Below are positions 1-64,000 of a stretch of DNA of 64,000 bases, in pieces. The position numbers and the translations under genes are program-made. The notes beneath the pieces are model-generated. The model was not told the origin of the DNA. It was given only the letters and a program-made list of their open reading frames with translations, and made no database searches. The stretch's first letter is position 1; each line of letters opens with the position of its first letter. The DNA comes from Physcia stellaris (lineage: Eukaryota > Ascomycota > Lecanoromycetes > Caliciales > Physciaceae): contig JABSSW010000084.1 of the NCBI GenBank assembly GCA_018902385.1, forward strand, positions 20,744 to 84,743, written 5' to 3'.

Positions 1-787
1 GATTTATTCGTAATTTCAATCGTATCGCGATTTTACTTATTTCAATGTTGAAAAATTCTGAAAAAACATACAAAAAAAACAAATTTCGAAAACGTAAACG
101 AAATCGAAATCGAAACTTTCAACGTTTTGCAAAATTCTTTACTGTTAAAATTGTCGAAACGTTCGAAATTTTGAAAATTTGCTTTATTGAAATGTCGTTA
201 TTGCATCATTTCAATTTTATTTGTCGATTTCGAATTGAAATCGATGTTTTCAATAAAACGATCGAAAAAATTTTCATTCAATTTATTGACGGCGAATGAC
301 ATTCAATTGTTTACTATTTTTTCAAGATGAATTCGACACAATGCAATTACGAAATACACGATCAGAAATTGTTGATTATTGTTGAAACATTCAAGCATTG
401 ACGACATTATTTGAAAAACGCTTCACACGAAATTCTCGTTTTCACGAATTATCATAATTTGAAAAAATTCATGAAAAATCACAAAATTATTGTCGCGTCA
501 AATTCGATGAATTCAAAAATTGTCACGATACAATTTTCGTATTGATTATCGTCAAAATAAAAAAAATTCAACGAATGCGTTATTTCGACGCTCAAACTTA
601 ATGCAAAAAAATGAAAATGTTCGTGAAAAAAATCGTCGAATTTTGCATCGTTTTCAGAAATTTCTACAGAAACAAAATGTTGACGTGAAAATCATGCTCG
701 TCGCAACATGCAAATTTCAAAACGAAATCGAAAATTCAAATTTTTTTGCAATTCACAACGAAACAGAAAATCAACAAAAAATTGATT
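1..787 (+). pseudogene. Gypsy-B copy 1: RNase H end of pol (truncated by window edge)
   Basis: This is the RNase H portion of a Ty3/Gypsy polyprotein, which normally degrades the RNA strand during reverse transcription. Visible landmarks are the RT/RNase H connection (LLHHF, near 196-213), the segment after DGE, and KLLIIVETFKH followed by RHYLKNASHEILVFTNYHNLK (about 365-455). The end of the domain reads LSRYNFRIDYRQNKKNSTNAL (519-588), equivalent to the family's YRPGxxNxxADALSRR. TGA at 297-299 sits where Gypsy proteins have Trp (GEWHP), and another TGA replaces Trp in the KxWRHYL motif. Gly positions read as Asp, Asn, Glu or Lys. The frame shifts near 490-520. RT proper lies outside the window. 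Family assignment is firm; the exact 5' boundary is unknown. Confidence 0.85.
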
Positions 788-1019
788 GACGCACATTAAT
801 GATTGACGAAACATACGTATTTGAACGTTTCAAAAAATTAATCGCAATGCGTAACGTCATGATTTCAAAACAAATTTACGACGAAAAAATAATCAAATTT
901 TTCGTCGATTTGATTTTTCAAATGTTGTTTCAAAATTTTTTTGTCGTTTCGTTTCGAAAAAAATTAACTATTTTTAACGAAAATGACGAACATTGAATTG
1001 ACGAAAATGACGTTTTTCG

Positions 1020-2010
1020 TTTTGACGACAAATTGTATATATCAAAACGAATTCGATTCGATGTGTTACAACGTTGTCACGATGATTTTTTTGCAAATCA
1101 TTTCGAAATGAATAAAATTTTGAAATTATTTCGTCGCAAATATTATTGATTTGATCGAAATCACGATTTTGACATGTTTGTTGACATGTTCGAATTCGTC
1201 AAAAATTATTGCGAAAATTGTGTTATTTGCAAACGAAACAAAACATCAAGACATAAATCATATGAAAAATTTCAATTTTTTTTTATATTTCAATATCGTT
1301 GAGTTGATTTTACAATGAATTTCGTGACAAATTTATCAACAAATAAAAATTGAAACGATGTCAAATACGACAATATTTTTGTCGTCGTCGATCGTTTTAC
1401 GAAAATGATTCATTATATTTTCGTCACGAAAACAATTAAAATCAAAAATTTGACGAAAATGTTTATACGAAAAATAATTCGATATCATGATTTTTCTAAT
1501 TTTATCATTATTGATCGTGAATCATTGTTCACGTTCGAATATTATTATTTTTTGTGTTATGTATTGAAAATAAAAAAAAAAACGTTGACAACGTTTCATT
1601 CTCAAACTGATGAACAAACGAAACGACAAAATAATATCATGAAACAATATCTTCGAACATACGTCAACTTCGCTCAAAATAATTGAATTTTTTTACTTTT
1701 TATGATCGAATTCGTTTACAACAATGCGAATCACGTTTCAACAAACATGTCATCGTTTCGAATTAACTTGAACTATAATTCACGAATGATTTTCGAAAAA
1801 AATTCTAATTCACGATCACGAACTCCGGCAGCATTAAATCATTTCAAAAAATTACGTCAGTTGATTGCTGTTTTCAAAAACGAATTGATAAATGCTCAAC
1901 GAAATCAAACACGATTCAAAAATAAGCGAAACATCGTCAAAACGTACAATAAAAACGACATGATTTGATTGAATATCAAAAATATCAAAATCAAACGAAA
2001 TAACAAATTG
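1020..2010 (+). pseudogene. Gypsy-B copy 1: integrase
   Basis: Integrase inserts the element cDNA into the host genome. A zinc-binding HHCC region ends in CENCVICKRNK (about 1210-1245). The catalytic core follows: VDFTMNFVT with the first Asp (about 1305-1330), IIDRESLF with the second Asp (about 1510-1535), then QTDEQTKRQNNIMKQYLR (about 1600-1655). The third catalytic acid, normally Glu after Met, reads Lys (AAA at 1642-1644), as expected if ATGGAA became ATGAAA. TGA codons interrupt at conserved Trp positions, for example after NNIMKQYLRTYVNFAQNN (1684-1686) where Trp is usual. Together with the neighbouring RNase H and chromodomain this is the 3' half of one pol gene. It is non-functional. 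Confidence 0.85.
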
Positions 2011-2059
2011 AAACATCGTCTTTTCGAATCGTTCAAAATTCTCGATACACATGAATTTA

Positions 2060-2535
2060 ATGTTTACAAATTGACGCTTTTCGATCAATGACACATACAC
2101 GATGTATTTCACGTCTTTTTACTGAAAAGAAACAATTCAAGAAAAAAAAAAATTCAACAATTTCTGTCACGTTTTCTTCTGATTATATTGACGTGAAAAA
2201 TCAAAATTCGATGTATCAAATACGTGAAATTGTTGACAATGTTGATTTCGAAACGAACAAAATTTTCAATCGATTTGAATGATTAGAAAATTTTTATTAT
2301 CTAATAAATTGAAAAAGTTACGAAAAATATGATCGCACATGAAAATTTTATGAAAAAATAACACATTTGAAAAAAATTTTTCGTCAATTTCACGATGAAA
2401 ATTTCAACAAATCGAACGATCGAAAATTCACATCGACGTCAAAATCAAAAAATTTTATTTTTAAATCAAAAATTTTCAAATCGAAAAAAAAATCAAATCG
2501 TTTTCGCAAAAATCAATGACGAATATTTGATTTAA
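2060..2535 (+). pseudogene. Gypsy-B copy 1: chromodomain tail of integrase
   Basis: The C-terminal part of a chromovirus-type integrase. The sequence reads IHDVFHVFLLK (about 2095-2125), the HPVFHVSLL motif that precedes chromodomains in Ty3/Gypsy elements. A chromodomain-like stretch follows at about 2212-2385 (YQIREIVDNVDF, then FYYLIN-stop-KSYEKYDRT-stop-KF). Chromodomains bind methylated histone tails and target integration to heterochromatin. Three TGA codons fall at the Trp positions expected in a chromodomain (WLENPYYLIxWKGYxxxxxTW). A Lys/Ser-rich tail continues to about 2535. Domain identity is inferred from order and motif spacing. Confidence 0.75.
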
Positions 2536-2793
2536 ATACAATGTTTACGAATTTTTTCGTCAAATTTTATTTTTCATTCGAATTTTCGTCGTCGTCAAAT
2601 CATTATCGTCGAATTATATAATTCGCAATACAATTATTTGATCAAATTTCGATCAATCATTTGCAACGATTCAACAAACGCATTTGCAAAAATCATTGAA
2701 TCAACGCATGATCGCGAAAGTAATTTCGTTTTTTTCAAATTTTCATTGAAAACATATATCATTTGATCATTTTTTATTGTTTCAGCAAATCAC

Positions 2794-2997
2794 GCACTTT
2801 TTTGTTCTGTTTTTCACTGAATTTTTCAGATTTTAACGAGACGTAAACAAAAAGCGAAAAAATCTTTTTTATTTTCGTATCAGAGTCGCGAAGCATTTCG
2901 TCATTTTTCTTTTTTTATGCATTTTTTTATTCTGTTATTTTTTTGAATTTTTCGAATCTCAATGAGACATCGACAACGAACGAAAAATTCTTTGTTC
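2794..2997 (+). repeat. Imperfect direct repeat, two units of about 78 bp
   Basis: Unit 1 (2794-2871) and unit 2 (2919-2997) share the order GCA, T-run, TTCTGTT, TGAATTTTTC, a GAGAC-type core and CGAAAAA/TCTTT. Offset is 125 bp. Duplicated blocks of this kind in LTR U3 regions can be promoter elements; that role is inference. Confidence 0.5.
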
Positions 2998-3072
2998 AAA
3001 CAAACATGTAAGCAATCGTCGTCGTCATCGTCGCAACAATCAAACTAATTTCAATTCGAAAGTGATTTCGAC

Positions 3073-3080
3073 TATATAAA
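3073..3080 (+). promoter_or_regulatory. TATA-like box upstream of Gypsy-B copy 2
   Basis: TATATAAA lies just upstream of the gag-like region and downstream of the U3-like repeat, a reasonable place for an LTR promoter. In DNA this AT-rich a chance match is quite possible. Confidence 0.35.
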
Positions 3081-3085
3081 ACATT

Positions 3086-3790
3086 TTCAAATTTTTTTTT
3101 CATTATCATTTTCGAGATCGCTTTCGAGAGCAAATTTCTTGAAAATGTCACAAAACGACGACGTCATCAGCGAATGATGCTCGAAAAAATTCGTCGTCGA
3201 TTCGTAAACGTCAAACACGTGAATTTCATGAAACTTCGATCTCGTTGAAAGAAAATAATGTAACGATGCAAATCGAAATCGAATAAACGATTTGCAATGA
3301 TTCAAATCAAAAACGAAAAATCGATTGCTCGACATTGATGCTCAAATTCTAAAAAGCAAATTTCGATATATTCGTCGAACGATGTAATCAGAAAAATTGC
3401 ATGAATTTCAATTCGAAAATCTTGAAAACTAAAAATAAATCATGTATTAACGATATGCGATAGTCGCTGAAAATCTCGATAAAAAATCGCCAAATACATA
3501 GTAAATCACGAATTTTGTTTCTGATGAAACAACGATTCGTCTGAATATCAAAGACATGCAATTTTAATTCTAATCAATTGATGCAAATAAATCAATTTTC
3601 TGAAAGAAAAAGTTTTACATTTTCGAAAATCGAAATCAAAAAAGTAATCGACTTGATGATTTTCAATCAAATTGACACAAAAAAAATTCAATATCAAACG
3701 AGTGTATCGACTTTAATCATGACGATTTTTTTACAATCGATATCGAAATCAAAAGTGTCAAACGTCGTCGTCGAAAACTTCGCATAACTA
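3086..3790 (+). pseudogene. Gypsy-B copy 2: gag-like region
   Basis: This occupies the gag position, between the LTR-like spacer and the protease/RT region. With TGA read through, one frame runs almost continuously, including ERKSFTFSKIEIKKVIDLM (about 3600-3655) before a TAA at 3784-3786. I see no zinc knuckle and no motif that proves Gag. The region 3100-3560 keeps some ApG/CpT and is less mutated than pol. The assignment rests on position only. Confidence 0.4.
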
Positions 3791-3799
3791 AATGTAAAA

Positions 3800-4230
3800 A
3801 AACAAAATCAAAATGAACAAGAAATTTGACGAAAAAAAAATTTGAAATTCGAAATCGTCATGAATTTTGAAGCAAAAGTCAATCTAATAAATCATATTCT
3901 CGTTAAACAACTCGAATTAATATTTTTCAACGTATCAAATTGCGAGATCGTGACTATAAATAATCACTTTTTCAAAACTATGAAATTTATTTCGTTCAAT
4001 TCGAAATACAAAACGAAAACGACGTAAATCGTTTTTTCAATAATAGTTTTTTAGAAACAAATTTCGCATGAGATATGACGTTGAATTTGTCTTGAATGCA
4101 ATTGTCAAAAATCAATGTGAATTGAAATATCGATAAAATCGAATCGTGATCACTAATTGTAAAATCAATTCTTTTCACAACAAATCGTATCGAGAAAATT
4201 GAATCAGAAAAACTAATCAACGCGATGATT
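3800..4230 (+). pseudogene. Gypsy-B copy 2: retropepsin-like protease region
   Basis: Retroelement aspartic proteases cleave the Gag-Pol precursor. MNFEAKVNLINHILVKQLEL (about 3860-3920) matches the segment following the catalytic D[TS]G in fungal Gypsy elements (EVNLINxxLVKQLGL type). The catalytic triad itself cannot be read, since its Gly codon is a prime target of the mutation seen here. The paralogous minus-strand copy at 51511-51699 preserves the same block. The frame is interrupted beyond 4020 but leads into the RT region. Confidence 0.6.
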
Positions 4231-5160
4231 GATGACAAGAAACAAATTTTCGTCATGTTCGTACGAATCATTCATGATAAAATGAAAAATCTGAATAACG
4301 TGCACATCGAACGAAAAATTCAAATCGATTTTGCTTTCGCGAAAATTGAAAATAAATCAAATATCAAAATCATCATTTTCGAAATTTTGAAAGAATTCGT
4401 TGATCTGACAGATAAAAACAAAACATATGAATTATTTGATCATGAATCAGACGATCACGCAATAAATTTGAAATTTGACAAGAAATTTTCATATGATTTC
4501 ATTTATTCGTTGTCAGAAAACGAACTTAAAATATTGCGAACATATTTGAATAAACATTTCAAGAACGACTTCATTCGACTTTTCACTTTTTCGATTGACG
4601 CATCAATTTTATTCGTCAAAAAAAAAACGAAACGCTGAAATTATGCGTGAATTATAAAAATTTGAATTTTCTAACGATCAAAAATAAATATTTTCTATCG
4701 TTAATTGATGAAAGTTTGAATCGTTTAAACAAAATTCGCATTTATACAAATCTCGATATGATAACGACGTACAACAAATTTCGTATTAAAAAAAAACGAT
4801 AAGTGAAAAACAACGTTTCGAACACGATATGAGCATTTTGAATATATCGTTTTATTTTTTGATTTCATTAATGCATTTGCAACGTTTCAGAATTTTGTCA
4901 ATAAAATTTTAGCGAAACGATTCGATTTCTGTGTCATAATATATTTCGACGATATCGTCATTTATTTTATGAATCGAAAATAACATATCGAAAACGTCAA
5001 ATGAATTTTTCAACGCTTAAAGAAACACAAACTTTTCATCAATATTGATAAATGCAAATGATTTACGAACAATATCGACTTTTTGAACTTTGTCGTTTTT
5101 TCAAAAAATGTGCAAATGCAAAAAAATAAAATCGATGTCATACAAAATTGATCGATTTCA
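4225..5160 (+). pseudogene. Gypsy-B copy 2: reverse transcriptase
   Basis: Reverse transcriptase of Ty3/Gypsy type. The N-terminal lead-in reads YSLSENELKILRTYLNKHFKNDFIR (about 4505-4580), then ASILFVKKK (about 4598-4626), then a TGA-broken LCVNYKNLNFLTIKNKYFLSLIDESL (about 4637-4715). The catalytic YxDD survives as IYFDDIVIY (GAC GAT at 4948-4953). Here the first Asp codon is preceded by C, so the observed context would not mutate it. Multiple TGA codons sit at Trp positions. Pol continues into RNase H. Confidence 0.85.
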
Positions 5161-7625: not shown

Positions 7626-7765
7626 TGTCAAAATTCAAATTTCGAAATTAATTTTATATTTTTGTCACGTGATTTAAACGATTTTGACGTTTCAATATGT
7701 ATATAACGAATTCAAATTTTCAGCATTTTTAACAATACAATGCGTTTTATTTTTTATTTTTGACA
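7626..7765 (+). repeat. Copia copy 1 5' LTR (140 bp)
   Basis: Direct repeat of 15054-15193, 29961-30100 and 49156-49295. Starts TGTCA, ends TGACA (inverted termini). It contains CACGTG followed by a conserved block and a TATATA stretch at about 7699-7704 that could serve as the promoter. ApG and CpT sites present in the 49156-49295 copy are mostly ApA and TpT here. Confidence 0.95.
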
Positions 7766-7779
7766 AATTATGAATTCGA
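7766..7779 (+). promoter_or_regulatory. Copia copy 1 primer-binding site (mutated half-tRNA type)
   Basis: AATTATGAATTCGA begins directly at the LTR end. Applying the window's rule backwards (G to A after a purine, C to T before a pyrimidine) to a GGTTATGAGC(T/C)CGA-type site gives exactly this string. Such a site pairs with the anticodon arm of initiator tRNA-Met, as in Drosophila copia and yeast Ty5 half-tRNA priming. The location is certain; the tRNA assignment is inferred. Confidence 0.6.
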
Positions 7780-7925
7780 AAAAACGAATAATTTATTTGT
7801 AATTTTCGTATCAAATTAATCGTTTAAACGAACGAACGTTATTATTGTTTTTATGTCAAAATTCAATACATTTTTACGAAATTTTTTTTTAAAAATTTTT
7901 CAAAATCAAAACTCATTGCATTGCA

Positions 7926-9600
7926 ATGAAAAATACAATTTCAAAAAACATGAATTTTGAACAAAAAAACAAATTTCAAAAATGTCATCGAAATTCGTTC
8001 GACATAATTGAACAAAAACAAATTTCAAAAATGTCGAAAAAATTGAACAAACGATTAAATTTATTTTTTATTCGCGATTTGTCGTTTTCGTTAAAAAACG
8101 CATTGATTAATGAAATTGTAAACAAACAAATCATTGATGAATTCATTCAAACGATATGTATCAATCATGTGATCATGTGAAACGATTGATATCGCAATTG
8201 ATTAACGAAATTTGAAACGCGTTTAATTTCGTCAAAATACGAATGTCGAATCGTTAAAAACATGCAAAATTTTTTCAATTTCAATTTTTTCAATTCATTT
8301 GAAATCGTATTGCGAAAAATCAACATCACAAAAATTCGAACAATTGATTTCGAACAATCGAAATTCGAATTCAATCAATTTTTTTATTATTTTCAATCAA
8401 ACGAATCACAATTGCGATTCACAATAATTTCGTATTGATTTATCAAAATCAATAATCGATCAATTGTTGAACGATTTCAAAAACAAAATTGAATTGAAAC
8501 GACAAATGATTTTGATCAAAATTTTAACGCAATTGCATATTTCAATATCACGAATTTTGATTCATTCGATAATTTTTCAATCATTCGATTTGTCAAAAAA
8601 AAACAAATAAATTGATTCAAAAAAACAAATTCGAAAATTAAAAACGTGTCGCATTGAACATTGTTGCAATTAATGCACGATCGAATCAAATTGAAATCAT
8701 TCAATCATTCAATATTAAACGAAATTCAATTTTTTGTTTTTCAAAATTCAATCAAAAAATGATTGACATTTCAATAAATCAAACATTTGAAACAAATTCA
8801 AATTCAATAACGATTGACAATGTCAAAACGAAAATTGAAATCATTGTCGTATCATCAAAAATTGAATTTTCAATTATCGTGAAAATTGAAATTATTGTCG
8901 CAACAAAAATCGAATTTTCAAACAATGTTGAAACAAATGCATATAATCAAACATTTTTTTTCGAAAAAATTGACAAAAAACGAAAACGTTACAAAATTAT
9001 TTTATCATTTGAAATTCACGTTTATTTTTCACAATTTACATTTACGTTTTTTTTGCAATTATTTAAAAAACGATTCAAATTCAATTTCGAAAATTTTCAA
9101 CAATTCAATTGAAATGTGTCAATTGATCAATTGTTTTCAATCAATTTTATTAACAAAATAAAAATCATTCGTTATTTATACGTAAAACATTTCGAAACAA
9201 AATTTTTTGACATTGTACACGAAATTGCACAAATCATAATTGATCATTTTCGCGAATTAAACGAGAAAAACACTGAAAACTACGAGTATCAATTTTCTTT
9301 TTTCAAATTCGCCGAATTCTCATTTATAGATTCATTTTCTAGTTTTCAAATATCGAGTTCATCGAATTTTCTCGATTTCTTTCGTTTAATCACACGAATT
9401 TTTTTTAAATTTTCAAAATCATCATGTTCAATTCGACAATTCAATTCGACATCGAAAACGTCTTTTTCATCGTTTTCGCTTTCGTTTTCGTTTTTCTTAA
9501 AATCATCATCAAAATCAGTGATTTTCAAAAATATCTCAAGTGAAATCGAGAAATGAAAAATGTTCTCAAATGAATTCGTTTGTGAAAATATATTCAACGA
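7926..9600 (+). pseudogene. Copia copy 1: gag-like region
   Basis: Occupies the Gag position after the leader. With TGA read as lost Trp, one frame runs from MKNTISKNMNFEQKNKFQ (7926) through about 8640. A second frame carries 8654-9112, and a third carries 9116-9556 (RYLYVKHFETKFFDIVHEIA, then a Ser/Phe-rich stretch that would have been Ser/Pro-rich). A Gag zinc knuckle is not visible. Region 9255-9560 keeps ApG/CpT while the same segment of Copia copy 3 has lost them, which is useful for reading the mutation context. Function by position only. Confidence 0.5.
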
Positions 9601-10699
9601 GCGTTTTCAATTGAAAATGAAAATAATGAATTGTGTTGTATTGTTTTACGTACAATTGTGAACGACGATTTGTATCATGACATTAAAAATATCAATGTAA
9701 TCAAAAATGTTTGAAAAAAAATTATTCAAATTTGCAAATTCAAAAAATTCAATGCGTTCATGATTATTTATAACAAATTTGAATTTTTCAAAAATTTTTT
9801 TGCGTCGATATCAATGAATATAAATTCAAATTTCGAAACATTATTAACGAATTCGTCATTTATTCATTCAATTCAAAAATGAATGAAAATTGATTTATTT
9901 ACAAATATTTTGCGAATTTTTCAAAATTCGTTCGTTTTTTCATTGATCGTTGAATTTCGAAACATGAATTTTTCGACAATAATCAAAAAAATGATTTCAA
10001 ACACGTTTTTTCGAACGTTATTCATTCATACGAAATTCAATGCATCAATTTTTTTGAAATTGCGATCATCAACGATATTGATTTTGTTTTTTTAATTATC
10101 GATTTTGTTTCAAATTTCATCAAATCGTTTCAACAAAACGTCATTTTCGAACATATCAAAATTATTATTCAAAAAATCAAATGATGCGATCATTGTCAAA
10201 AATTTTATCATGATATTATCGAATGCATCATCAAACATTTTCATTTTGTCGTTGTCAAACAAATTCGAAAAAAAAAAAAAAAACGACGCAAACGCAAAAA
10301 TCAACAACGCAACGATAATCAAAATCAAAATCAAAATCAAAATCAAAATCAAAATCAAAATCAAAATCGAACGAAAAAAAACAAAAACAAAAAAAACAAC
10401 AAAAATAAAACGAAATTCGACGAAAATTTTTGAAAATTTGTAAACGAAACGATAATCACGCATTCGATTTTCGTCGAAATTGTTGTTTTTTCGAAATCAA
10501 TCAATTTTGACAAATTTATTGTCGTCAAATTTTTTTTTTCATTTTTGTTATCATCAAAATTTTGAATTTCAATATCGTTTGATTGTTCGATACGAACGTT
10601 TTTTTTCACATGATTAATAATCGTTGATTTTTCATCAATTTTGTTGTCATTTTCGATATTTCAATTGAAAACATAAAAAAAAATTCAAATTTTTCGATT
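9601..10699 (+). other. Copia copy 1: gag/protease interval
   Basis: Expected to contain the end of Gag and the protease. Short frames such as MKIDLFTNILRIFQNSF (9883) are conserved in copy 3, but I recognise no D[TS]G protease motif, which this mutation would erase. A polyA run and a hexanucleotide array lie at 10265-10368. Confidence 0.35.
10317..10368 (+). repeat. AAAATC hexanucleotide microsatellite
   Basis: About eight tandem AAAATC units, flanked by other A-rich runs. The same array is present in Copia copy 3 at 44379-44430 with one variant unit, so it predates their divergence. Depending on frame it encodes a Lys/Ile or Asn/Gln repeat. Confidence 0.9.
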
Positions 10700-11800
10700 A
10701 CGATATTGTGCGATTTTTTTGCGACATTTTTAACGAAAATCGTTATTTATTTATTCATCAAATGTTTTACGTTTCAAATTGCATTTATAATTTTTTTTTT
10801 TTTCAATTTCAACAAAACGATTGTTTTTTATTTATTATATTCAACGATTTCGCAATGAACAACAAAAACATTCATGTTTTGAAACAACAAAATTTTTACG
10901 TTTTTCAATTCGACAAATTCGTGATTTGTTTAATTGTCAATCAAAACACGTTGAAAATGTGACACGAACGATTGAATCATTTGAATATTCAAAATATTAT
11001 TCAAATAATTTATCAACATGATATTGATTTTTTCAAATTATCATTATCGAATTCGTGCATTTTTTGCGAAAAAATCAATGATAAAACGAAATTTTATCGA
11101 AAATTTATCAAATCAAAACGTCATGTTGACGATTTCATTCACGATAATTTGATAAATTTTTTTCAAAAAAACAAAATGATGTTTATTGAATAATGATTTG
11201 AATTGACGATTTTATTCAAATGTTTCACGTGAACATTTTATACGACAAAACATTTTTCGAAATTTTGATTTCATTCAAAAATTTTTGAATATCATTGAAC
11301 ACGATCATTTTCGTTGCATTCGTTTACGAATTGACAACGATAATGAATTTTTTGAAAATGTTTTTACGATTTATCGAAAAAAACGCGACATCATAATGAA
11401 ATTTTTTATTGTTGAAAATTTTCAAATGAACGAATACGTTGAACGTTTTAATCAAATTATCATACGCAAAATCAACACATTTTTGAAAAATTCAAAATTG
11501 TTCATAAAATGATGATTCGAATTTGTTAATGTTGTCAATCACATTCGCAACGTTTTTATTTTCATTTTCGTAATCGACGACAATGACAAATCAATATTTT
11601 TTTATCAAAAATTTATCGATCATGTTTATTTTATCGAAAAATTTCGTCGCATCGATCAAAAAAAAAATATTTGATAATCAAATTCAACATTAATTGAAAA
11701 AATTTCAAAATTATCGTCAACGTGAAATTTTGATAAAATACGATGAAAAAATCATATATCGAATAATCATCATTTCGAACAACATTTATCGTTTTTTAAC
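10700..11800 (+). pseudogene. Copia copy 1: GAG-pre-integrase and integrase
   Basis: A frame covering CDIFNENRYLFIHQMFYVSN (about 10720-10780) leads into the GAG-pre-integrase motif WHxRxxHL, here KM-stop-HERLNHL. The stop is TGA at 10960-10962, exactly at the invariant Trp. CIFCEKINDKTKFYRKFIKS (about 11056-11115) is the CxxCxxxKxxR segment. The integrase core reads RCIRLRIDNDNEFFENVF (about 11313-11367; family RTDNGGEF, Gly replaced by Asp/Asn), then IVENFQMNEYVERFNQIII (about 11409-11463; family PQxNGxAERxNxTI). Two TGA codons after FIK (11509-11514 region) match a conserved WW pair. Confidence 0.88.
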
Positions 11801-12333
11801 GTCGAATGATTGAACAACAAACGATTTCATTCAACGACAAAATCATTTGCGCAAACATTTAAAAATCAAATCGACATTTTTTTAAACAATTTGAACGTGA
11901 AATTCAAAAATGACAATCATTGCATCGATATCATTTTTCGTTTCACACAAATTCAATCGCAAAAAATTTTTCAAAACAATGCGTTCGTGATTTTTGACAC
12001 GTTCGATTTCGAAAACGATTTCGAAAAATCGCGAAAACAACGTCAATTTGTTTTTTCGTTTTTCATTTTGAAAAATTCAATTCGATTATTTTTTACGTTG
12101 TTTGATAATGATGTCGACGAATTGATTATCAACATTTTCGATTTCGTTCAATTCGAAATCGTCAATATTGTCAATCAATTCGAAAAAACGTTGAAACAAC
12201 ATTTTTATTTGCGTTTTCGTCGTGATTTTTCAATGAATTTTTTGATTTTGTTGATTCAATATGTTTTTTCAAATTTTCACGAATTCAAAATTTACAATGA
12301 AACAATGACGAACGTTCAACACAAAATGAATTG
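11801..12333 (+). pseudogene. Copia copy 1: integrase C-terminus and linker to RT
   Basis: A 174-codon open stretch (11810-12334) between integrase and RT, beginning MNNKRFHSTTKSFAQTFKNQ. In Copia polyproteins this interval is a poorly conserved linker, often Pro/Ser-rich; Pro codons would have become Ser, Phe or Leu here. No catalytic motif is expected. It stays open because it lacked Trp codons. Copy 3 has the same stretch at 45882-46406. Confidence 0.55.
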
Positions 12334-13845
12334 ACAATTAAATATGAACGATAAAATGCAATTTCATAAAAACAATGACATTTGAAAATTCGTGTTTTTC
12401 GTGTTTCAAAATCGTAAAATTTTTTTGATAAATGAATTTATAAAAAAAAAAAAATCAATGATAAAATGATCAAATATAAAACACGTTAATGTGTTCGAAA
12501 TTTCGAACAAAAAAATTTTGATTATCACGAAACGTTTTCAATCGTGATTAAATTTATGAATTACAAAATCATTTTCGTCATCGTCGTTGCGAATGATTGA
12601 AAAATAAAACAAATAAATGTCAAAATCGTTTTTTTGTATGAAAACATCGATGAAAAAATTTATGTGAAAATTTTTCATGAATATATTGATTTTAAACGAA
12701 AAATGTATTGTCGTTTACGCAAAATTTTTATGAATTCAAACAATCGTTTCGAATTTGATTCAATATTTTGATCAATTTTTTTAAAAAACATAAATTTTTT
12801 TTTTGAATGCGAATCAAAGTGTTTTTTTAACGACAAAATCATTATCGTTATTTACGTGAACGATTTTTTTATTGTTGAATTTAACAAAAAATTCATTCGA
12901 CAAATTAAAAAAATTTTCAATAAACGTTTTCAAATGACGAACATGAAATCATTTGTTTATTATTTAAATATAAACGTAACAAAAAATAAACAATAACGAA
13001 TTTTTTGTTTCAATCAAAAAATTTATTTGAATTTTTTTTTCAAAAATCATGAAATGTGAAATGTTAATTATAAAATCACATTTATGAACGTCAATATCAA
13101 ATTTGAATTTGTTGATTTTGATTACATTTGTTTCGTTTTCGACAAATTTCGTTATCAATTCGTCGTTGATTTTTTCATGTACGCGATGTTTAAAATTCGT
13201 TCAAATATTGCATATGCGATATCAATAATAAATCGATATGCATTTAATTTCACGAAAATTCATTGAAAAATTGTCATCAAAATTTTCAAATATTTTCGAC
13301 ATTTTTTCGATTTGTTTTTTATTTTTTTTGAATTTTTTCGTTTTTTGACAAATTACATCGATGTCGATTGAATTGACAACAAAAAAATTCGTCGTTCAAT
13401 TTTCGATTACATTTTCAATTTCGATAACGAAATTTTCAATTAATTATTCAAACGACAAATCATTGTAATTTTTTTTATTTGTGAAATCGAATATATGAAT
13501 CAAATTCAAATTGTCAAAAAAATCATATCGAATTTGTTGAACGAATTGCAATTTTTCAATACGATTAAAAATAATTTAATTGTTTATGAAATTTTTGTTT
13601 ATTGTTTCGTAATCATTATTATTTATTGCGACAATCAAAAAACACAAACGTTAATTCGTAATTTCAATCAACACGTTCGAAACAAACATATCGATATTCA
13701 ACAACATTTCGTCAAAAACAAAATGCAAAACGATATTTTGAATTTGCAATATGTTTTTAATAATCAACAAATTGTCGACGATTTAATCAAATTTTTGTTC
13801 AAAAACAAATTTTTGAAATTTCGTCGCGACATTGATTTGATGTAA
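12334..13845 (+). pseudogene. Copia copy 1: reverse transcriptase and RNase H
   Basis: RT motifs: VKIVFLYENIDEKIYVKIFH (about 12620-12680; family MDVKTAFLNGxLxEEVYM), KRKMYCRLRK (about 12699-12725) and the active site IVIYVNDFFIV (about 12845-12880), where YVDD has become YVND, as the context predicts for GTGGAC. RNase H: MYAMFKIRSNIAYAISIINRYA (about 13177-13245), a TGA at 13264-13266 where the family has HW, then KIFKYFRHFFDL. After N-TGA-LFKRQ (family SWSSKRQ) comes CEIEYMNQIQIV (about 13482-13515). The C-terminus reads NKHIDIQQHFVKNKMQN and ends RRDIDLM-TAA at 13845. Confidence 0.9.
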
Positions 13846-15053
13846 TCGAAAAATGTTGTTATTTGACGAATTTAAATAAAATTTTTTTTTAAATAATAAT
13901 TCGTTCAATCGAAATCATTTTTTGAACGATTAACACATTTTAATCAAAACACAATCATTTTTATTCAATGATTTTCATGAATTTTTCAAAAACGAATTTG
14001 TTCATGAATCAAAAATTTCAACGTTCAAATCGAATTCAAAAAACGTATCAAAAAATTTTTGTTACATTAAACGTTTATCAAAATTTCATCAAAAAATTTC
14101 AACATTCAAATGATTTCATCAAAAATAAAAATTTATTCAAAAATTTCAACATTCAAATCAAATCGATTTTCGTCAAAAATTGATTTGAAAACGTTTCAAA
14201 AAACGTTCAAAACGAACACAAACATCAAAAATTCGCATCACGAATCAATGTTCAAATTCAAAAATCGTTATCATTTTTTTCGAAAAACGAAATTCATACA
14301 ATTTATCGAAAATACATTCAATCGTTATCATTTTTTTCGAAAAACGAAATTCATACAATTCATCGAAAATACATTAAAAAAAAAATTTTATAATTTCACG
14401 TTTAATTTATCAAACAACGACATTCGAACAAATTATTCAAATATTTAATTTTCAAATCACATATCAAATACGTACATTATTTCGAACAAAAATTATTTAT
14501 TTTCGCATTTCAATTATTTGTGAAAATTATTTATTGTTTATTGTTAACGTTTGAATCATGTGAAAATTATTTATTCGTTTTTTCGAATCATGTGAAAACA
14601 TTATTCAATATTTTTTATTATTTACATTTATTATTTTCGTATTTTCGAAAATTTATCATTTGCATTTTTTATACGTCAATTTCATTCAACAACGAAATCA
14701 CATAAAATTATTTATATTTTTCATATATTTTTCGAATTCATTTTTGATTCAAAACAATAAACATACAATAAATTTCAAAAATAATTTTCAAAAATCGCGT
14801 TTTTGTCAAAAAAATACATTTTTTTTTATTTTCGCGCATTTAACAAAACGTTTTATCATCGACAAAAATTTGATTTCGAATTTTATATTGATTTTATCGT
14901 CGTCGCATAAAATTTTTTTCAAACATAATCAAAAAAAAAAAAATTCACAATTTCTTATTAACATTCACATCTCAAAAAGAATGTGAAAATTGTGAAAATT
15001 GTGAAAACAAATTAGAAAATACAAAATGTTGAAAAAATAAATTTAAATGAAAA
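13846..15053 (+). other. Copia copy 1: 1.2-kb segment between RNase H stop and 3' LTR
   Basis: Unusually long for a Copia element. Short frames (13968-14183, 14110-14448, 14660-14986) are partly conserved in copy 3 (48008-48271, 48847-49134), including FIKKFQHSNDFIKNKN. I recognise no domain. It holds a 57-bp tandem duplication and ends in an A-rich tract before the LTR (degenerate polypurine tract). The segment 14935-15005 keeps some ApG/CpT. Confidence 0.5.
14263..14375 (+). repeat. 57-bp tandem duplication
   Basis: Units 14263-14319 and 14320-14375 are nearly identical (AATCGTTATCATTTTTTTCG at the start of each). In frame they encode NRYHFFRKTKFIQFIENT twice. The duplication is also present, less mutated, in Copia copy 3 at about 48352-48465, so it is a property of the family. 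Confidence 0.9.
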
Positions 15054-23510: not shown

Positions 23511-23570
23511 AAGATATGTAGCGACGACATTTCAAATTTTGACTTCGAATGAATAAAGAAATTAAGTCGA

Positions 23571-47700: not shown

Positions 47701-47931
47701 ATTATTATTTATTGCGACAATCAAAAAACACAAACGTTAATTCGTAATTTCAATCAACACGTTCGAAACAAACACATCGATATTCAACAACATTTCGTCA
47801 AAAACAAAATGCAAAACGATATTTTGAATTTGCAACATGTTTTTAATGATCAACAAATTGTCGACGATTTAATCAAATTTTTGTTCAAAAACAAATTTTT
47901 GAAATTTCGTCGCGACATTGATTTGATGTAA
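44774..47931 (+). pseudogene. Copia copy 3: pol (integrase, RT, RNase H)
   Basis: The same domain string as copy 1. The GAG-pre-integrase motif has its Trp as TGA (45026-45028). The integrase core RCIRLRIDNDDEFFENVF lies at about 45384-45438, followed by QMNECVERFNQIIIRKINTF. Copy 1 has Tyr where this copy has Cys. The open linker is at 45882-46406. The RT active site is YVND near 46930-46945. RNase H reads MYAMFEIRSNIAYAISIINR (47257-47316) and ends RRDIDLM-TAA at 47931. A one-base indel near 45065 shifts the frame relative to copy 1. Confidence 0.88.
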
Positions 47932-49155: not shown

Positions 49156-49295
49156 TGTCAGAATTCAAATTTCGAAATTAGTTTTATATTTTTGTCACGT
49201 GATTTAGACGATTTTGACGTTTCAATATGTATATAGCGAATTCAAATTCTCAGCATTTTTAGCAATACAATGCGTTTTATTTTTTACTTTTGACA
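49156..49295 (+). repeat. Copia copy 3 3' LTR (140 bp), best preserved
   Basis: TGTCA...TGACA. It retains ApG or CpT at nearly all sites that vary among the four LTRs, so it serves as the reference. Confidence 0.95.
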
Positions 49296-51901: not shown

Positions 51902-52101
51902 TGTGACGAGCGTGCATCGAATTCAACATTTGAGCAAAATTAACATCGTGTTAACATCGTTATTTTATCATCGAATGTTAGAGTCGAAATTCGTTTTGAC
52001 GCATTCAAAAAATCAAATTTTTTATTTATGTTTTTGCAAATTTTCATGTATTTGCTCTCTATTTAAAAATTCTCGTGTAATTATGTATTAATATCATACA
52101 A
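51902..52101 (+). repeat. LTR of the TGTGACGA family (about 200 bp)
   Basis: Starts TGTGACGAGCGTGCATCG, ends near ATCATACA. Shares long blocks with 55153-55316, 62692-62755 and 16282-16425. It appears solo: the left flank is a Gypsy-B fragment and the right flank is unassigned sequence. It keeps ApG/CpT at several sites. Confidence 0.7.
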
Positions 52102-52654
52102 ATTTGCTCGTGAATTTTTTCAAAAAAATTTCGTGCAGAACTTCAAAGTTAAATTTGAATTTGATAAAATTGCGAAAATCGATATCTCGCAATTGTTTTG
52201 CGATTTCAACGATTTCGCATTTTCATAGCATTTGCATTCAATAAATAAAACATACAAACGAAAATTCGTTTTGAAACTCGAAATGAACTCTATTCAAATA
52301 ATCAATAATATCGAAAATCGATCGAATGCGCATTGAATTATGATCGAAATCGCATCGAAACGCTGCAAACATTTGAAAAAATTGAGTTTTCAAAAAGCGA
52401 AACGCTCGACGATGTAATCTTGAAAGTTTCAAAACTATTGCGATAACGAATCGATTTCAATGATTTTTGAAACGTTGAAATGCGTTCATTTAACTCTACA
52501 ATTTCGAATATTTAAGTGAAAATCATATGTGATTGTTGATAAAGATGCAAAATGCGAAACAATTGTACAGACAACGAAAAATTGAACGAAACTTTTTCGC
52601 AGACATTTCAATTGACGATTTGACACAGATTTGACAGCGACGAAGTTTTGAAAA
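52102..52654. other. Unassigned, lightly mutated
   Basis: No protein motif recognised on either strand. It contains many ApG, CpT and GC dinucleotides compared with its neighbours, so it probably escaped the mutation process, perhaps because it was single copy. A minus-strand open stretch (52432-52238, RRAFRFLKTQFFQMFAAFRC) has no recognisable domain. Confidence 0.4.
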
Positions 52655-52892
52655 TTATCATGAATCGTGTTTGAATAGACGTAATATTGACTAACTAGAC
52701 GAAAACAATAAATCTGCAGAAACAAATATGTACAAAATGATGAAATTGTAAACAATGTGCGAACGTCAAATTTCAAATCACGCTAATTTCGTCAGAAAAT
52801 TAAAACATAATTCGATTTAAATCTATTTGCTTAATCATTTATCATATCATTTATTTATTTGTCAAATTTATCTGTCAAACATGTTCGTAACA
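52655..52892 (-). repeat. Gypsy-C LTR, minus strand
   Basis: On the minus strand it starts TGTTACGAACATG at 52892 and runs to a CACGATTCATGATA equivalent at about 52655, matching 40574-40817. Lightly mutated. Confidence 0.75.
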
Positions 52893-55152
52893 TTATTTTT
52901 TTCTTTTCGCGAACGTCGTTTCGACGATTCGTTGTTGTTGCGAAATTTGAAAACTTTGTAAAAAATTTTGCTGATCAAATTGTATAATTGCAAAATTCAA
53001 AAATTTCACGATCATCACTTTTCATTTTTTAATATTCTAGTGTCATTTCAACGTTCGATAAAATCTGACGACAATTTTTGAAAATATTTTTGACACGATT
53101 CAATTCTTCATGCGATGTAAATTCTGACTGTAAATAACATCGAAAAAGTAATAAAAATTGAATTGTTGAATAAAAATCGTGAAATCAAAAACGAATGAAT
53201 AAAAATTGAATTCGTGACGTCAAATGTTAATCGAAAATAGTTTCGATTAATGTTAACATGACGATTTTTTTTCGAAAACGACGACGATTCGTTGAAAAAT
53301 TTGATTCGTTGACGACGATTTGAAATATTGAAATCAACGTTTTGAACGATTTTGAATTTGTTGTCGTGAAATGAATACGATGAAAATCGTTCATCACGTC
53401 GCGAACATTATCGAATTTTTCGTTATCGACATAATATCACGTTCGATCATGAAATCAATTCGATCAATTGACATGATATTGAAAACGATTGTAATGATAT
53501 CGAAATTTCAAAATATCGTTCATTTTTCATTCGAAATTCTCGTTGATTATGACGAAATCGAAAAATTCGTTAATTTGATTTTCGAAAAAAATCACGAAAA
53601 TCTTTGCGAAAAAATCAACAATTTGAAAACACATCGTAAATTCGCATAATTTTTGATAATTCGAATCGATAAAAATCGTTTCATACGTTTTAACATTTTG
53701 TACGATTTTAATTTTTTGTCATCAAATTTGTCAAATGATTTGATCGTTTTGATGTTTCGTCGATTTAAAAAAACGAAATTTTTTTCGACGTATTTCACGA
53801 TTTTTCGATGTTTGTTGATTTGAATTGTTATACGTTTTTGAATCATTTTTGCATGATTTCGTACGTAATTGAAAATATTTTGCATTGTGTCGATGATATT
53901 TTTTGTTTTGACGATCAAAAATCGTTTTCTCGTTGTAACATACGAAATAAAATTTAATAAAAAATTCATACGAAAATGAAAACTTTTATTGATGAAAAAA
54001 AATGACAATTTTGTAATTGCAAATATCGCGTTGTTGTTTGCAAATTCGATCATGAACAATTAAACGTTTCAATCGTTTTGCATATAATTGCAATATTGTC
54101 GCAATTGTTTTTCGATATTTTGATTAATTTTCTCGATTTGTTCATCGATTTTTGAGTGAAAAATGATAAAAAATTTACATTTGATATCGAGAATTTTGCA
54201 AAATGTTTGTCAAACGAACGATATGAATTGAGATTTTCGATTTGACGTTATAAAAAAAAAATTCATGCGTACGAAATACGTAATTAATAAATATTTTGAT
54301 TGTGATTTTCGCGTTTGTATTTTCGTCGTCGACAATGCAAAATACGTAATGACGTTTTTTATTAAATTTGTCAATTATCGTGCAAATGACGTTATGATCG
54401 TGAACGTCGAACAATTCGATAATGAAATTCATGAATATATCGATTCAACGTTGCAAAAAAATGATCAAAAAAATGAATAAATCATTTTTTCGATTTTTGA
54501 AAATTTTCGTACGTTGACATTCATAACAATTACGTACGTATCGACGAACGAATTTACGCATGTTGAATCAATAATAATCGCGACGTATAAAATTTTTCAT
54601 ACGATTGAAATTTGAATGTTTCGAAATCGAAAATTCGTGAATTTTTTTGAAAAAATCAACGAATAAAAAAACATCGACAAACATTCATAATCGATCATTT
54701 CGATATAAAATTTCGTTTCGTTCATTGCAATCTCGTAAATCGATTTCGTTCATTGAAATGAAATTTTGTTCGATAATTTCACGATACGTCGTGCAATCAT
54801 CGTCAATTTTATTGACAATCAAAATTCGTTCATAAATAAAATCGTCAAGTTTTATCGCGTGAATCTCGAATCGTTTTAAAATGAACAATATTTATTTTCG
54901 ATATTGATGTCGTTCATCAATTTCGTTTTTGAGTCGAAAATCAAACATACGAATCAAAATATTTATTTTAACGTTTTGAATTTCAAATTGAAATTGAATG
55001 AGAATGTTAAATTTCGAGAAAAATTTTGCTCAACGAATTTGACGAAAAATAAGTTTTTTCGACGTCATGAAAATTTTCAATTTTTTTGATCGATGAAAAT
55101 TTTGATCGATTTCTCGATGTTTTCGAATTTAAAACGTCAATGTTCTAAACAG
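52893..55152 (-). pseudogene. Gypsy-C minus copy: RNase H end, integrase, chromodomain
   Basis: Right to left: RNase H end (about 55152-54900, CLEH-stop-RFKFENIEK), linker YERILIVNKIDDDCTTYREI (about 54830-54770), integrase MNFIIELFDVHDHNVICTII (54432-54373) and MIEFANNNAIFAITKLSFFF (54053-53994). RNIKTIKSFDKFDDKKLKSY follows (about 53765-53705), then a chromodomain-like tail and the LTR at 52892. It is interrupted at 55152 by plus-strand Gypsy-C2. RT and upstream parts of a Gypsy-C copy resume beyond it at 62756. Confidence 0.8.
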
Positions 55153-57500: not shown

Positions 57501-57507
57501 AATAAAT

Positions 57508-58457: not shown

Positions 58458-60235
58458 TTGACAACGTTAAAAAAATTAATCAAAATAAAAATTGATTTTG
58501 ATTTGAATTTCAAAAAAATTTTTAAAATCATGAAAACAATCGTCGAAAAATTAAAACGTAAAATTTTTGAATTTTTTAAACGATTCGAAAATGTATTTAA
58601 TTTAAAAAAAATCGACAAATTATTTTTTCATAAATTTTACGATTACAAAATCGAATTGACGAAAAATTCGAATCAATTTTTTCGAAATCGAATTTATTTT
58701 TTATCGTTCAAAAAATTCGAAATTTTTCAAAAACATTTACATGATAATTTCAAAGAAAAATTTATCAATTCAAACAAAACGTTTTATGTTTCGTTTATTT
58801 TATTCGTTGTCAAATTCAACGAACAATTTCGTTTGTGTATCGATTATCGAAAATTGAACGTCATAATCAAACGTAATAATTATTTTATTTCGTTGATCGA
58901 AAAAATTCTCGCAAAAATTATCGATTGTAAATTTTTATTCAAATTGAATATTATATCGATTTTCAATAAATTTCGAATGAATTCACAAAACGAAAATTTT
59001 ATTATTTTTATATGTTCGTTAAACATTTACAAATATCATGTATTGTTTTTCGATTTTATCAATGATTCGATCAATTGACAACATTACATGAACGATTTGT
59101 TGTTTGAATATATTAATCATTTTTGTCAAATGTATTTGAATGATATTTTCATTTACAACAAAATTCGAAAACAACATGAACGACATTTCATTCAAATTTT
59201 TCAAAAATTGAAAAAAATTGATTTTCAAATCGATATCAAAAAATGCGAATTTTTTCAAACAAAAATTTCATTTTTAAAAATCATATTATCGACAAAAAAT
59301 TTACGCATGAATTTCAAAAAAATGCAAAACATCGTCAATTGAATTCGTTCAACATGCATCAAAAAAATGCAAACGTTTGTGAATTTTTGCAATTTTTATC
59401 GACGTTTGATCAAAACGTTTTCGAAATTCGTCAAATTTTTAATTTGAATAATTAAAAAAATTGATTTCGAATGAATCGATTTCGTTAACGAAATATTCGA
59501 AATTTTGAAAAAACAAATAATCGAAATTTCAATTTTTCGACATTACGATCGCAATCGCAAAATTATTTTGAAAATCGATTTTTCAAATTGATGTTTAAAT
59601 GAAATTTTATTTCAATACGACGACGACGAAATTTTTCATTCGATAATTTTTTTCAACAAAAAAATGATTTTTGTCGAATGCAATTACGAAATATATAACA
59701 AAAAATTTTTGATCATTATTCGATGTTTGAAGCATTGAAAATTTGAATTCGAAAATATCGATAAATCAATCGAAATTTACATCGATTACAAAAATTTAAA
59801 AATTTTTATGACAAACAAAAAATTCATTTTTCGTCAAATACGTTGAGTCGAGATTTTGACGAATTACAACATCAAAATTCAATATCAATTCGAAATCAAA
59901 AACGTCAAAACGAATGTTTTGATTAAAATGTTTGAATTTCGTTTCGTCGAAAACGACGAACGTGAATTTTATAAAAAACAAATTTTGTTGTCATTTTTTC
60001 GATTGCAATTATGTTCGATTGACGTTCAAAACGATTTATACGAACGCGTCATGCAAATCAATCGAAAAAACGAAAATTGTATTAATTATCGTCAAATTTT
60101 GATCGATGAACAAAAATCAACGAAAAATAAATTTGCAAAATTGTTTCGATCGAAACGAAATTTTTTTAAAAACGAAAATTTAAATAACGAAATTTTATCG
60201 AAATTCGAATTAAAATTTTTTTTTTAAAAAAATTT
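58458..60235 (+). pseudogene. Gypsy-C2: reverse transcriptase and RNase H
   Basis: The 206-codon open part (58458-59078) contains no Gly, Pro or Trp. It reads YDYKIELTKNSNQFFRNRIY, VKFNEQFRLCIDYRKLNVII and CKFLFKLNIISIFNKFRMNS, matching RT blocks 1-3. The active site is CQMYLNDIFIYN with TTG AAT GAT at 59136-59144 (YLDD to YLND). KCEFFQTKISFLKIILSTK follows. RNase H shows ECNYEIYNKKFLIIIRCLKH-stop (about 59679-59738) and RQIR-stop-VEILTNYNIKIQYQ (about 59835-59890). The linker to integrase is open at 59856-60227. Confidence 0.9.
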
Positions 60236-61960: not shown

Positions 61961-62001
61961 TGTAAAAAACGTGTCATGCAATGATATAAATAAACAACAA
62001 A
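61961..62001 (+). repeat. Short conserved motif TGTAAAA...GTCATGCAATGAT
   Basis: Third occurrence of the motif seen at 16429-16465 and 25160-25191. Here it lies between the chromodomain end and the zinc-finger region. Confidence 0.5.
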
Positions 62002-62691
62002 TTGTCAAAAAATTCGAATATTTACAAATTCGTCAACAAAATTTTCAATTGTTTATTAATGACACGCGAAATTATTTGTAAAATTCGTTCAAAATATTTG
62101 TTTTTCAAAAATTTAATACATGCATATTTCGTTGAATGCAATGTACGAATCAAATGTCGTATATGCGATAATATCGACGCGTTAATTTTGATGACAAAAA
62201 TTTTATCGACATGATCAAATTGTTCGTTTCGTGATATCAATTTGATGTTGCAAAAATTTTCAAAATTGTTGACGCGTTAAATCGAATTCACAATTTTTTG
62301 TTTATTAATGTTCGTCGAAATTATTTTTGACGAAACGTATGAATTGATTATTTTTCAAAACATTCATTACATTCACGTTTTGTCGCATGCAATGTACACA
62401 CAAATTTTCGCATACGCGAAAATATCAATACGTTAAACATTGTTACGATGATTTTATTAACATGATCAAATTGTTCATTTCATCGTAAATCGATTTGATG
62501 TTTTCACGATTTTTGACGAATCGATTTCGCGAACGAAATCGATTTCACAACATTTCGAATTTATTTTTTCATTTTATCAATCATTCAATTCAACGTCATT
62601 CAACAACGCATTTAAATCGCGCAAAACGTTCGTCAAAAAAAAAAATTCAATTGATCGTTTCGAAACGAAATTGAAAAAAAACGAAAAATAA
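62002..62691 (+). pseudogene. Zinc-finger-like region upstream of the right LTR
   Basis: CKIRSKYLFFKNLIHAYFVE then CNVRIKCRICDN (about 62080-62175) has the spacing of the C2H2-like finger at 15337-15399, with one Cys replaced by Arg. The end (about 62655-62690, DRFETKLKKNEK-stop) is the same as the end of the zinc-finger ORF at 16240-16282. The region is therefore a diverged relative of 15194-16281. Its role in the element is unknown. Confidence 0.5.
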
Positions 62692-62755
62692 TGTGACGAA
62701 CGTACATCGAATTCAACATTTGACAAAATTAACATCGAATTAACATCGTTATTTT
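62692..62755 (+). repeat. Gypsy-C2 right LTR, 5' part only
   Basis: TGTGACGAACGTACATCGAA and onward matches 51902-51965, then stops at ATCGTTATTTT. Minus-strand Gypsy-C sequence follows. Confidence 0.75.
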
Positions 62756-64000
62756 TTCATTTTTTTCATTCATTCGAAAGTTTGTTGAAAATCGATATAA
62801 TATTCAGTTTGATCAAATATTTGCAATTTTGCATTTTAATTAAAATTTTTTCGATCAAAAAATGAAATATCGATTGCGTTTCGTGATGTGATTGAATTTC
62901 GATAATTCACACACAAACGTAATTGATCATTTGATTTGATTGCAAATAAAACGAACGAAACGTAAACAATTTGATTAAATACGATAAAATTTTTTTTGAA
63001 AATTATTTTTCAAATATTTTTTGAATTTTTGAAATTTGAATTCGAACAATGAATATATTTTGTTTCGAAACAAAAAATTGTTATCGTTTAAAAATTCGAT
63101 TTTGTGATCGTAAAATATGCGAAAACAATTCAATTGTTTTTGAAAATCGAATATTTTTGATAAATGTTTGAAAATATTTCGATATTTTTTTTTTATTATA
63201 CGTTCAAAAATCGATTTGATTTGTTCGTGTTTTAAAATTTTTTGATCATGACAACAATTTTCAACGATTCAAAATTCGTTCGCAATGTTTTGAACGCGAA
63301 ATCGATTTGATTGATCGTAATGAAAAAACATTGCATTTTTGTTTTCGATTTTGAAATCGACGAACAAACAAAAAAATTGCATCAATCATCGCGATATTCA
63401 TGAATCGTTTGAATTCAATTTCGAAAATAAAAAATTTTGAATTGTTATTTTTGATTTTTCAACGTTTATTACGTTGTTTTTTCAGTTTTTTTGACGAATG
63501 TCGTTTTCGTAATCGTCGTAATATCAATTTTTGAATTATTTGATTCGATAATTGACGACTGGTCATCGATATCGACGTTCGAATGAGTTGAACATTCGAA
63601 ACATTTCGAATCGAATATATTTGATTCGTTTTCAACTGTAAAAAATAAAAATTTGATTTTGAAACGAAACAAAATGATATATCGAAATTTTATCATCGTT
63701 ATATGTTTCGTAATTTTTTTGCGATAATTACGATATCGCGACGTCAATTAAATACATTTCATCGACGATTTGATTTGAAAATTTTCAAACGTCGAATTTG
63801 AATCAATTTGATTGAATATATTGTCAGTGATGATTGCATTTGAACGATTTGAAAATCAATTTATCGTAAATCATGTTCAATATGATTTTATGTTTGTTCA
63901 TTTACGATTTTTTAAAATTATCGAATGATTATTCAAATCGATGATTAACAAAAAAAGCGATCAATTCGAAATGCAATTTTATCGTTAATTTAAAATATAT
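62756..64000 (-). pseudogene. Gypsy-C minus copy: gag end, protease, start of RT (window edge)
   Basis: Reverse complement of 36500-37610 of Gypsy-C copy 1. RT start (FNKFRMNE equivalent) lies near 62770, LRLCVNYRR near 62920. MTSRYRNYRKKITKHITMIK is at 63747-63688. The protease end lies beyond. It continues past the window. With 52893-55152 it may be one copy split by Gypsy-C2, though about 0.7 kb of RT/RNase H is missing between the two pieces. Confidence 0.75.

Follow-up and report, generated by a model that had tools for sequence, protein, structure and literature searches.

A RIP-like mutational pattern with a nearly reversed context preference in the lichen-forming fungus Physcia stellaris

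How can DNA lose almost every cytosine that stands before a pyrimidine, on both strands, and keep those that stand before A or G? The question is raised by a stretch of 64,000 nucleotides of Physcia stellaris, a lichen-forming ascomycete (Pezizomycotina, Lecanoromycetes, Caliciales, Physciaceae), taken from contig JABSSW010000084.1 (C84:20744-84743) and hereafter called the window. From the base content of the whole window 1,056 CC and 888 GG dinucleotides are expected and only 4 and 3 were found, and CT and AG number 311 and 285 against 3,086 and 2,852 expected, whereas CA (4246), CG (3660), TG (3590) and TA (3421) were kept, each at about one sixteenth of all dinucleotides. The guanine-plus-cytosine (GC) content is 0.246. 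Divided into 2-kb bins, the window shows the skew in all 32, with observed/expected ratios of 0-0.04 for CC, 0-0.44 for CT, 0-0.06 for GG, 0-0.36 for AG, 3.0-4.9 for CG and 1.1-1.7 for CA; at a finer resolution of 200 bp, CT and AG are both absent from 162 of 320 bins, and 52% of what remains of them falls into 32 bins. An initial annotation of this DNA had noted that C survives almost only before A or G, and G almost only after C or T, which these counts confirm, and its example, positions 8041-8160 with 7 CA, 7 CG and no CC, CT, AG or GG, agrees exactly on recount.

When every C before C or T (CpY) in gene-rich DNA (160 kb) was converted in silico on either strand, the result was a GC content of 0.247 and dinucleotide percentages close to those of the window (model versus window: AA/TT 19.70 and 19.34; AC/GT 4.36 and 4.16; AT 13.61 and 13.73; CA/TG 6.87 and 6.12; CG 5.46 and 5.72; GA/TC 6.64 and 6.88; GC 1.34 and 1.27; TA 4.46 and 5.35). 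A process of this kind, run to completion on ordinary P. stellaris DNA, would thus yield the composition of the window. Models in which only CpA, CpA together with CpT, or only CpG was converted did not fit; the CpA model predicts 18% TA, and the window has 5.4%.

The direction and context of the changes could be read from a retrotransposon that encodes integrase and reverse transcriptase domains; its copies L041 (contig C12) and L040 (C5) are unmutated, and further copies form a graded series falling from 81% to 69% identity (42 matches; the best 40 of 309 candidates were scored). With L041 as the unmutated reference, the four mutated copies most similar to it, and hence youngest (L046, L047, L048 and L049, in this order below), had C>T at 374/490, 416/486, 423/490 and 441/491 CpC sites (76, 86, 86 and 90%) and at 185/414, 204/413, 232/415 and 280/419 CpT sites (45, 49, 56 and 67%), as compared with 11/421, 11/419, 20/421 and 22/421 CpA sites (2.6, 2.6, 4.8 and 5.2%) and 12/437, 13/436, 18/436 and 15/437 CpG sites (2.7, 3.0, 4.1 and 3.4%). 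The unmutated control pair, L040 and L041, differed at 2.4-4.3% of sites in every context (CpA 10/422, CpC 15/487, CpG 18/434, CpT 18/419). C>T and G>A changes dominate, as they do in repeat-induced point mutation (RIP) broadly understood: 583-759 of them were counted in the four copies, versus 19-27 reverse transitions and 19-26 transversions. The proposal of the initial annotation that C is converted before a pyrimidine and spared in CpA and CpG is therefore borne out in these alignments, where C>T is far from equally frequent at CpA and CpY; that both CpC and CpT are targets also holds, with the refinement that CpC is hit harder.

Canonical RIP, with CpA as its true target, CpA sites rebuilt or hidden afterwards and CpY only an apparent target, would find some encouragement in the RID-like and DIM-2-like genes of this fungus and in CpA ranking next among the affected contexts of old copies. 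However, CpA changed in only 2.6-5.2% of cases in the young copies, which is background, while CpC changed in 76-90%; CpA was hit at 0/201 sites in a mutation event of 1.2 kb described below; and TpA, the product of CpA mutation, is scarce in the window (3421, ratio 0.38). Together with the failure of the CpA conversion model, the contexts in the young copies and the 1.2-kb event refute this explanation for the copies examined, and we give it almost no credence as an account of the window.

The 5' neighbour has only a mild influence, with mutated fractions of 0.82-0.90 for CpC and 0.43-0.60 for CpT across the four 5' bases, the lowest being GpCpT (0.43, as against 0.56-0.60 for the other NpCpT contexts), and TpC before a purine was spared in L046 (TCA 2/107, TCG 4/134). 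This bears on a cytosine deaminase of the AID/APOBEC type, or ultraviolet damage at dipyrimidines, either of which would in outline explain strand-biased patches and a dipyrimidine target. AID/APOBEC-type deaminases read the 5' base, and ultraviolet light damages TpC as well, but in these copies it is the 3' base that dominates; moreover, such damage would not halt at the edges of repeats. We therefore regard both as very improbable.

Both strands were mutated in L046-L049, in patches. Within a patch of about 1.2 kb in L046, CpY sites were mutated at 23/144 positions on the plus strand and at 139/182 on the minus strand. L046 (C95) and L047 (C51) are near-identical outside a 1.2-kb stretch, inside which each has private mutations: over about 3.2 kb they differ by one transversion and 113 transitions (82 C/T and 31 A/G), concentrated in that stretch. 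From L046 to L047 the stretch shows 85 C>T changes, 84 of them at CpY, with CpA changed at 0/201 and CpG at 1/206 sites; 75 lie on the plus strand and 10 on the other, and one more plus-strand change lies outside the stretch. In the direction from L047 to L046 there are 27 C>T changes in all (23 CpY, 4 CpG, no CpA). Either common descent or gene conversion, with independent rounds of mutation afterwards, accounts for this pattern, and these differences come close to the spectrum of single events.

The same observations weigh on slow decay, in which CpC and CpT would be methylated in repeats, for instance by a DIM-2-like protein, and would then deaminate spontaneously over long times. A DIM-2-like gene, as we name it from its closest matches, is present, old copies show a slow additional loss of CpA and CpG, and according to a review of 2026, methylation by Neurospora DIM-2 falls mainly outside CG and prefers CpT (PMC13297926; here and below, published papers are cited from the portions of their text available to us). 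Nevertheless, transitions outnumber transversions by 583:20 to 759:19 with CpA and CpG at background, L046 and L047 are separated by a single transversion but 113 transitions, mostly on one strand and in one direction within 1.2 kb, and strand-biased bursts of kilobase size are not expected of spontaneous deamination. The excess of transitions over transversions, the bias towards one strand and the kilobase size of the patches point to bursts of active mutation, and we consider slow decay unlikely.

A second family showed the same preference: when L010, a partly mutated relative of the window repeats, was compared with seven targets, these carried T at 96-100% of CpC and 87-99% of CpT positions.

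The process appears to be confined to repeats. In the genome searched (43.97 Mb, 147 contigs), 20 stretches of 10 kb served as the comparison sample, and 18 of them have ordinary composition (GC 0.473-0.512; observed/expected 0.87-1.01 for CC and 0.98-1.12 for CT). The other two, L030 and L039, are AT-rich and show a loss like that of the window, L039 lying on the window's own contig and so not being independent. Within the sampled stretches, then, genes are spared, in line with the initial annotation, which had expected the loss only in repeats, and the gene-rich stretches are without the skew that unique genes would show if it were general. Short mutated segments occur inside L035 and L036, both among the 18 ordinary stretches; one of them, L036:2082-2547, is only about 465 bp long and is flanked by normal DNA. 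Six change points between mutated and ordinary DNA have abrupt edges, as at L007:960, where the CpY share of C drops from 248/478 to 1/444, and at L030:2411, where it drops from 596/1173 to 27/922.

In 19 of the stretches 17 of 380 bins of 500 bp were mutated, a fraction that probably understates the share of the genome because the stretches were drawn from contig interiors. The published P. stellaris assembly has 46.57 Mb in 184 scaffolds with a GC content of 43.32%, and was made from an ascospore-derived culture with about 31-fold nanopore and 30-fold Illumina coverage (PMC7513301), and the smaller genome searched here is probably a reduced version of it; a search of the text of that paper for 'RIP' and 'point mutation' gave no match. 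Simple arithmetic with GC contents of 43.3% (published), 49.8% (gene-rich DNA) and 24.6% (window) would put the mutated share of the genome at roughly a quarter.

The stop codons gained provide a further view of the target. If C is converted only in CpY, stops cannot arise from CAA, CAG or CGA, and TGG can yield only TGA. In an 866-codon frame of L041, which offers 50 CAA, CAG and CGA codons, the stops gained by the four mutated copies were TGG>TGA in 9/9, 14/14, 16/16 and 16/18 cases. Among reverse transcriptase (RVT_1) copies, the best 150 of 527 candidates, 250 TGA, 33 TAA and 3 TAG stops were tallied and 10 rows were free of stops, although these counts are not independent because many copies share ancestry. 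This codon logic, together with the graded copies and the ordinary gene-rich DNA, is hard to obtain from an error of sequencing or assembly; assemblies do fail most in repeats, but the depth of the published assembly in two technologies also argues against such an artefact, which we hold to be as improbable as canonical RIP.

The window itself contains the following features, given in window positions; for repeat families, the best 20 of 41 are listed.

1..64000, no strand: the whole window (C84:20744-84743), both strands of which are depleted of CpC and CpT, at GC 0.246.
8041..8160, no strand: the example stretch recounted above, from its dinucleotide count.
9294..14676, plus strand: long direct repeat with its partner at 43351-48766, spacing 34,057-34,090, blocks 91-99% identical (families D5-D8, D10-D14, D18, D20).
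43351..48766, plus strand: long direct repeat, partner of 9294-14676, from the repeat search.
7626..9302, plus strand: repeat with copies at 29961-31636 (84-97%, blocks shown) and 41985-43360 (families D1, D2, D4, D9, D16, D17, D19).
38395..39143, no strand: inverted-repeat arm of 749 nt, other arm at 54338-55086, 82% identical (I1).
19857..20363, minus strand: reverse transcriptase relic in an open piece, RVT_1 E 6.4e-11, from the Pfam search of open reading frames.
58815..59276, plus strand: reverse transcriptase relic, RVT_1 E 1.9e-9, with one internal TGA (C84:79558-80019).
1601..4600, no strand: residual CT/AG island with CC/GG nearly gone (nine 200-bp bins with at least 8).
9201..9600, no strand: residual CT/AG island with one CC/GG, from 200-bp bins.
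23401..24200, no strand: residual CT/AG island with one CC/GG, from 200-bp bins.
48201..49200, no strand: residual CT/AG island, 3 of 5 bins above the cut.
52001..53200, no strand: residual CT/AG island, 4 of 6 bins above the cut.

Since the island at 1601-4600 keeps CT and AG but hardly any CC or GG, CpC seems to have been lost before CpT. The 91-99% identity between 9294-14676 and 43351-48766 is perhaps partly convergence through complete conversion. A Pfam search of 10 of the 20 open reading frames of at least 120 amino acids gave a single match, the RVT_1 relic at 19857..20363, and Rfam and tRNA scans of the window gave no matches.

We asked which enzymes of P. stellaris could act in this way. 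A profile search of the genome with PF00145 returned three loci, L016, L017 and L018. L017 matches the PDB chains 9bap and 9baq, named DNA (cytosine-5-)-methyltransferase, at E of about 1e-181, and is putatively DIM-2-like, the identity of these chains with DIM-2 being our inference. L016 and L018, as judged from their sequences, are two RID-like loci, with the motifs PPCQ, EET or EQT, and QIGNAVPP. L018 (on C5) corresponds to a database protein of P. stellaris that is 99% identical over 99% of its frame. The second RID-like gene, at L016:844-2570, lies in three pieces and ends in QIGNAVPP; among the 120 matches listed there was no P. stellaris protein for it, so that the published annotation may lack it, although clustering of the database at 90% could hide it too.

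A quick tree of RID-like proteins (LG+G4, 168 columns, midpoint root) separated the two loci. It left out 37 of 145 chosen proteins, dropped for a mismatch at the start motif, as well as most of P0148-P0237 and all of P0110-P0120. L018 falls into a clade of 51 rows (Shimodaira-Hasegawa-like approximate likelihood ratio test, SH-aLRT, 98) together with proteins from Xylona, Pseudocyphellaria, Usnea and Teloschistales, and L016 into a separate clade of 37 rows (SH-aLRT 99) in which just one member is named, Heterodermia aff. obscurata, likewise of the Physciaceae; Heterodermia carries an L018-type protein as well. One RID-like protein, P0054 of Haloplaca sp., has PCCQ at the catalytic motif, where the others printed have PPCQ. 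By analogy with what is proposed for RIP elsewhere, which is why RID-like proteins are preferred over the DIM-2-like one, we think the mutator is most likely either L016 or L018, its recognition of the 3' base having changed; L017 is a live candidate too, given the CpT preference of Neurospora DIM-2.

Taken together, we judge it likely that the window is transposon-rich P. stellaris DNA hypermutated by a RIP-like, repeat-directed and CpY-specific process. The data show C converted to T before C and, with lower efficiency, before T; both strands are affected, in rounds of kilobase size that are sometimes strand-biased and halt sharply at gene-rich DNA, and CpA and CpG are left at background in young copies. 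Because the 3' base matters and the 5' base has little effect, the mutator would be an enzyme of the methyltransferase type, probably of the RID/DNMT1 family of DNA methyltransferases, acting directly or through methylation and rapid deamination.

Several points weigh against this account. The seven targets compared with L010 carried T at 4-17% of CpA and 2-10% of CpG positions, and in saturated copies CpA differed in 1738/18,745 cells and CpG in 558/15,855 (chunked BLAST of the window; 117 of 229 alignments used, with self, mirror-image and shorter than 150 bp alignments dropped). The sparing of CpA proposed in the initial annotation thus holds in young copies, at background, and is imperfect in the oldest ones. 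Given these losses in older and saturated copies, CpA appears to be a weak late target, so that the specificity is strong but not absolute, or a second, slow process is acting. Furthermore, the unmutated L040 and L041 are 95.5% identical over 3.3 kb, and a currently active process triggered by homology should have mutated them; their codon changes, 122 synonymous and 8 non-synonymous, indicate divergence under selection and escape from the process, which shows that it misses some duplicates or has been idle for a while. Finally, it is only presumed that repeats would be recognised by their repetition, and the attribution to an enzyme rests on analogy with RIP elsewhere.

As a mutational pattern, the RIP-like character with a nearly reversed context preference is well shown, and the pattern is set apart from canonical CpA-type RIP by both context and indices. 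Like RIP of the Neurospora type it consists of C>T and G>A changes in repeats on both strands, with strand patches, sharp edges and graded copies, in a genome with RID-like and DIM-2-like genes; it differs in that CpC exceeds CpT, CpA and CpG stay near background and the RIP indices are negative. In N. crassa the order of contexts is CpA>CpT>CpG>CpC, and in Trichoderma reesei, likewise a member of Pezizomycotina, whose repeat mutation has been seen experimentally, CpA and CpG lead and CpC comes last (PMC5496416). CpT signatures together with CpA have been described in Botrytis, Sclerotinia and Magnaporthe (PMC4352252), in Anisogramma (PMC10998396) and in some families of Colletotrichum truncatum, with TpA/ApT of 0.93-1.68 (PMC6180176), and CpT and ApG are reported as dominant forms in RIP-capable fungi (PMC7882544); P. 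stellaris shares the CpT target with those five fungi, but here CpA is spared and CpC leads. The RIP-like mutation of basidiomycetes, at TpCpG in Microbotryum and CpG in Rhizoctonia, is also repeat-linked C>T, whereas P. stellaris spares CpG. Raw changes at CpC are denser than those at CpG in Rhizoctonia solani AG8, genes and repeats being alike affected (PMC4014442), and in Monilinia CpC>TpT double changes accompany those at CpA (PMC8959702). Strong RIP, its context not given in the text available, has been reported for another lichen fungus, Cladonia rangiformis, whose repeats have a GC content of 10-20% (PMC12542154). Since the floor that we computed for CpY-only conversion of P. stellaris DNA is higher, at 24.7%, the process in C. 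rangiformis is predicted to strike further contexts as well.

The nearest precedent is found in short repeats of the ribosomal DNA of Stagonospora nodorum, with CpT>TpT in the absence of CpA, for which the authors doubted RIP (PMC2621366); in the available text this involves short repeats only, with no CpC lead reported. The initial annotation had known of no well described example: as regards joint loss of CpC and CpT this stands, since no report of both mutated with CpA and CpG spared was found in the open-licence literature (which is without most subscription journals and without any preprints), while S. nodorum does provide a case of CpT without CpA. From a screen of 1,239 fungal genomes, published in 2025, it was concluded that a CpA preference is common to RIP-like defences (PMC12543289); CpC, CpT, Physcia and lichen were not found in the available part of its main text, nor CpC and CpT in that of PMC7493409.

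By the published cut-offs, TpA/ApT above 1.15 and (CpA+TpG)/(ApC+GpT) of at most 0.75 (PMC7882544), the window fails on both counts, at 0.39 and 1.47. RIPCAL already offers indices for CpC and CpT (equations 5 and 7; PMC2621366); these are 0.0008 and 0.024 in the window and 0.827 and 1.004 in gene-rich DNA, and separate the two at once. Surveys based on TpA/ApT and CpA indices therefore give false negatives: the window scores as having no RIP although nearly all of its targets are gone.

P. stellaris is thus a clean counter-example to the shared CpA preference, with the context nearly reversed, and the target context can therefore change completely within Pezizomycotina. More tentatively, and with somewhat less than even confidence, we propose that one lineage of lichen fungi has its own system of repeat mutation, in which the enzyme of the L016 clade recognises a pyrimidine, and not a purine, on the 3' side. 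If so, pyrimidine tracts would turn entirely to T with only the last base free and CpA and CpG intact, genes would be destroyed mainly by missense changes and TGG>TGA, with a floor of about 25% GC, and the system would have been overlooked by RIP surveys that seek CpA loss. This fungus makes an old question testable: whether the enzyme itself is the mutator, and on which residues of RID or DIM-2 the choice of context depends.

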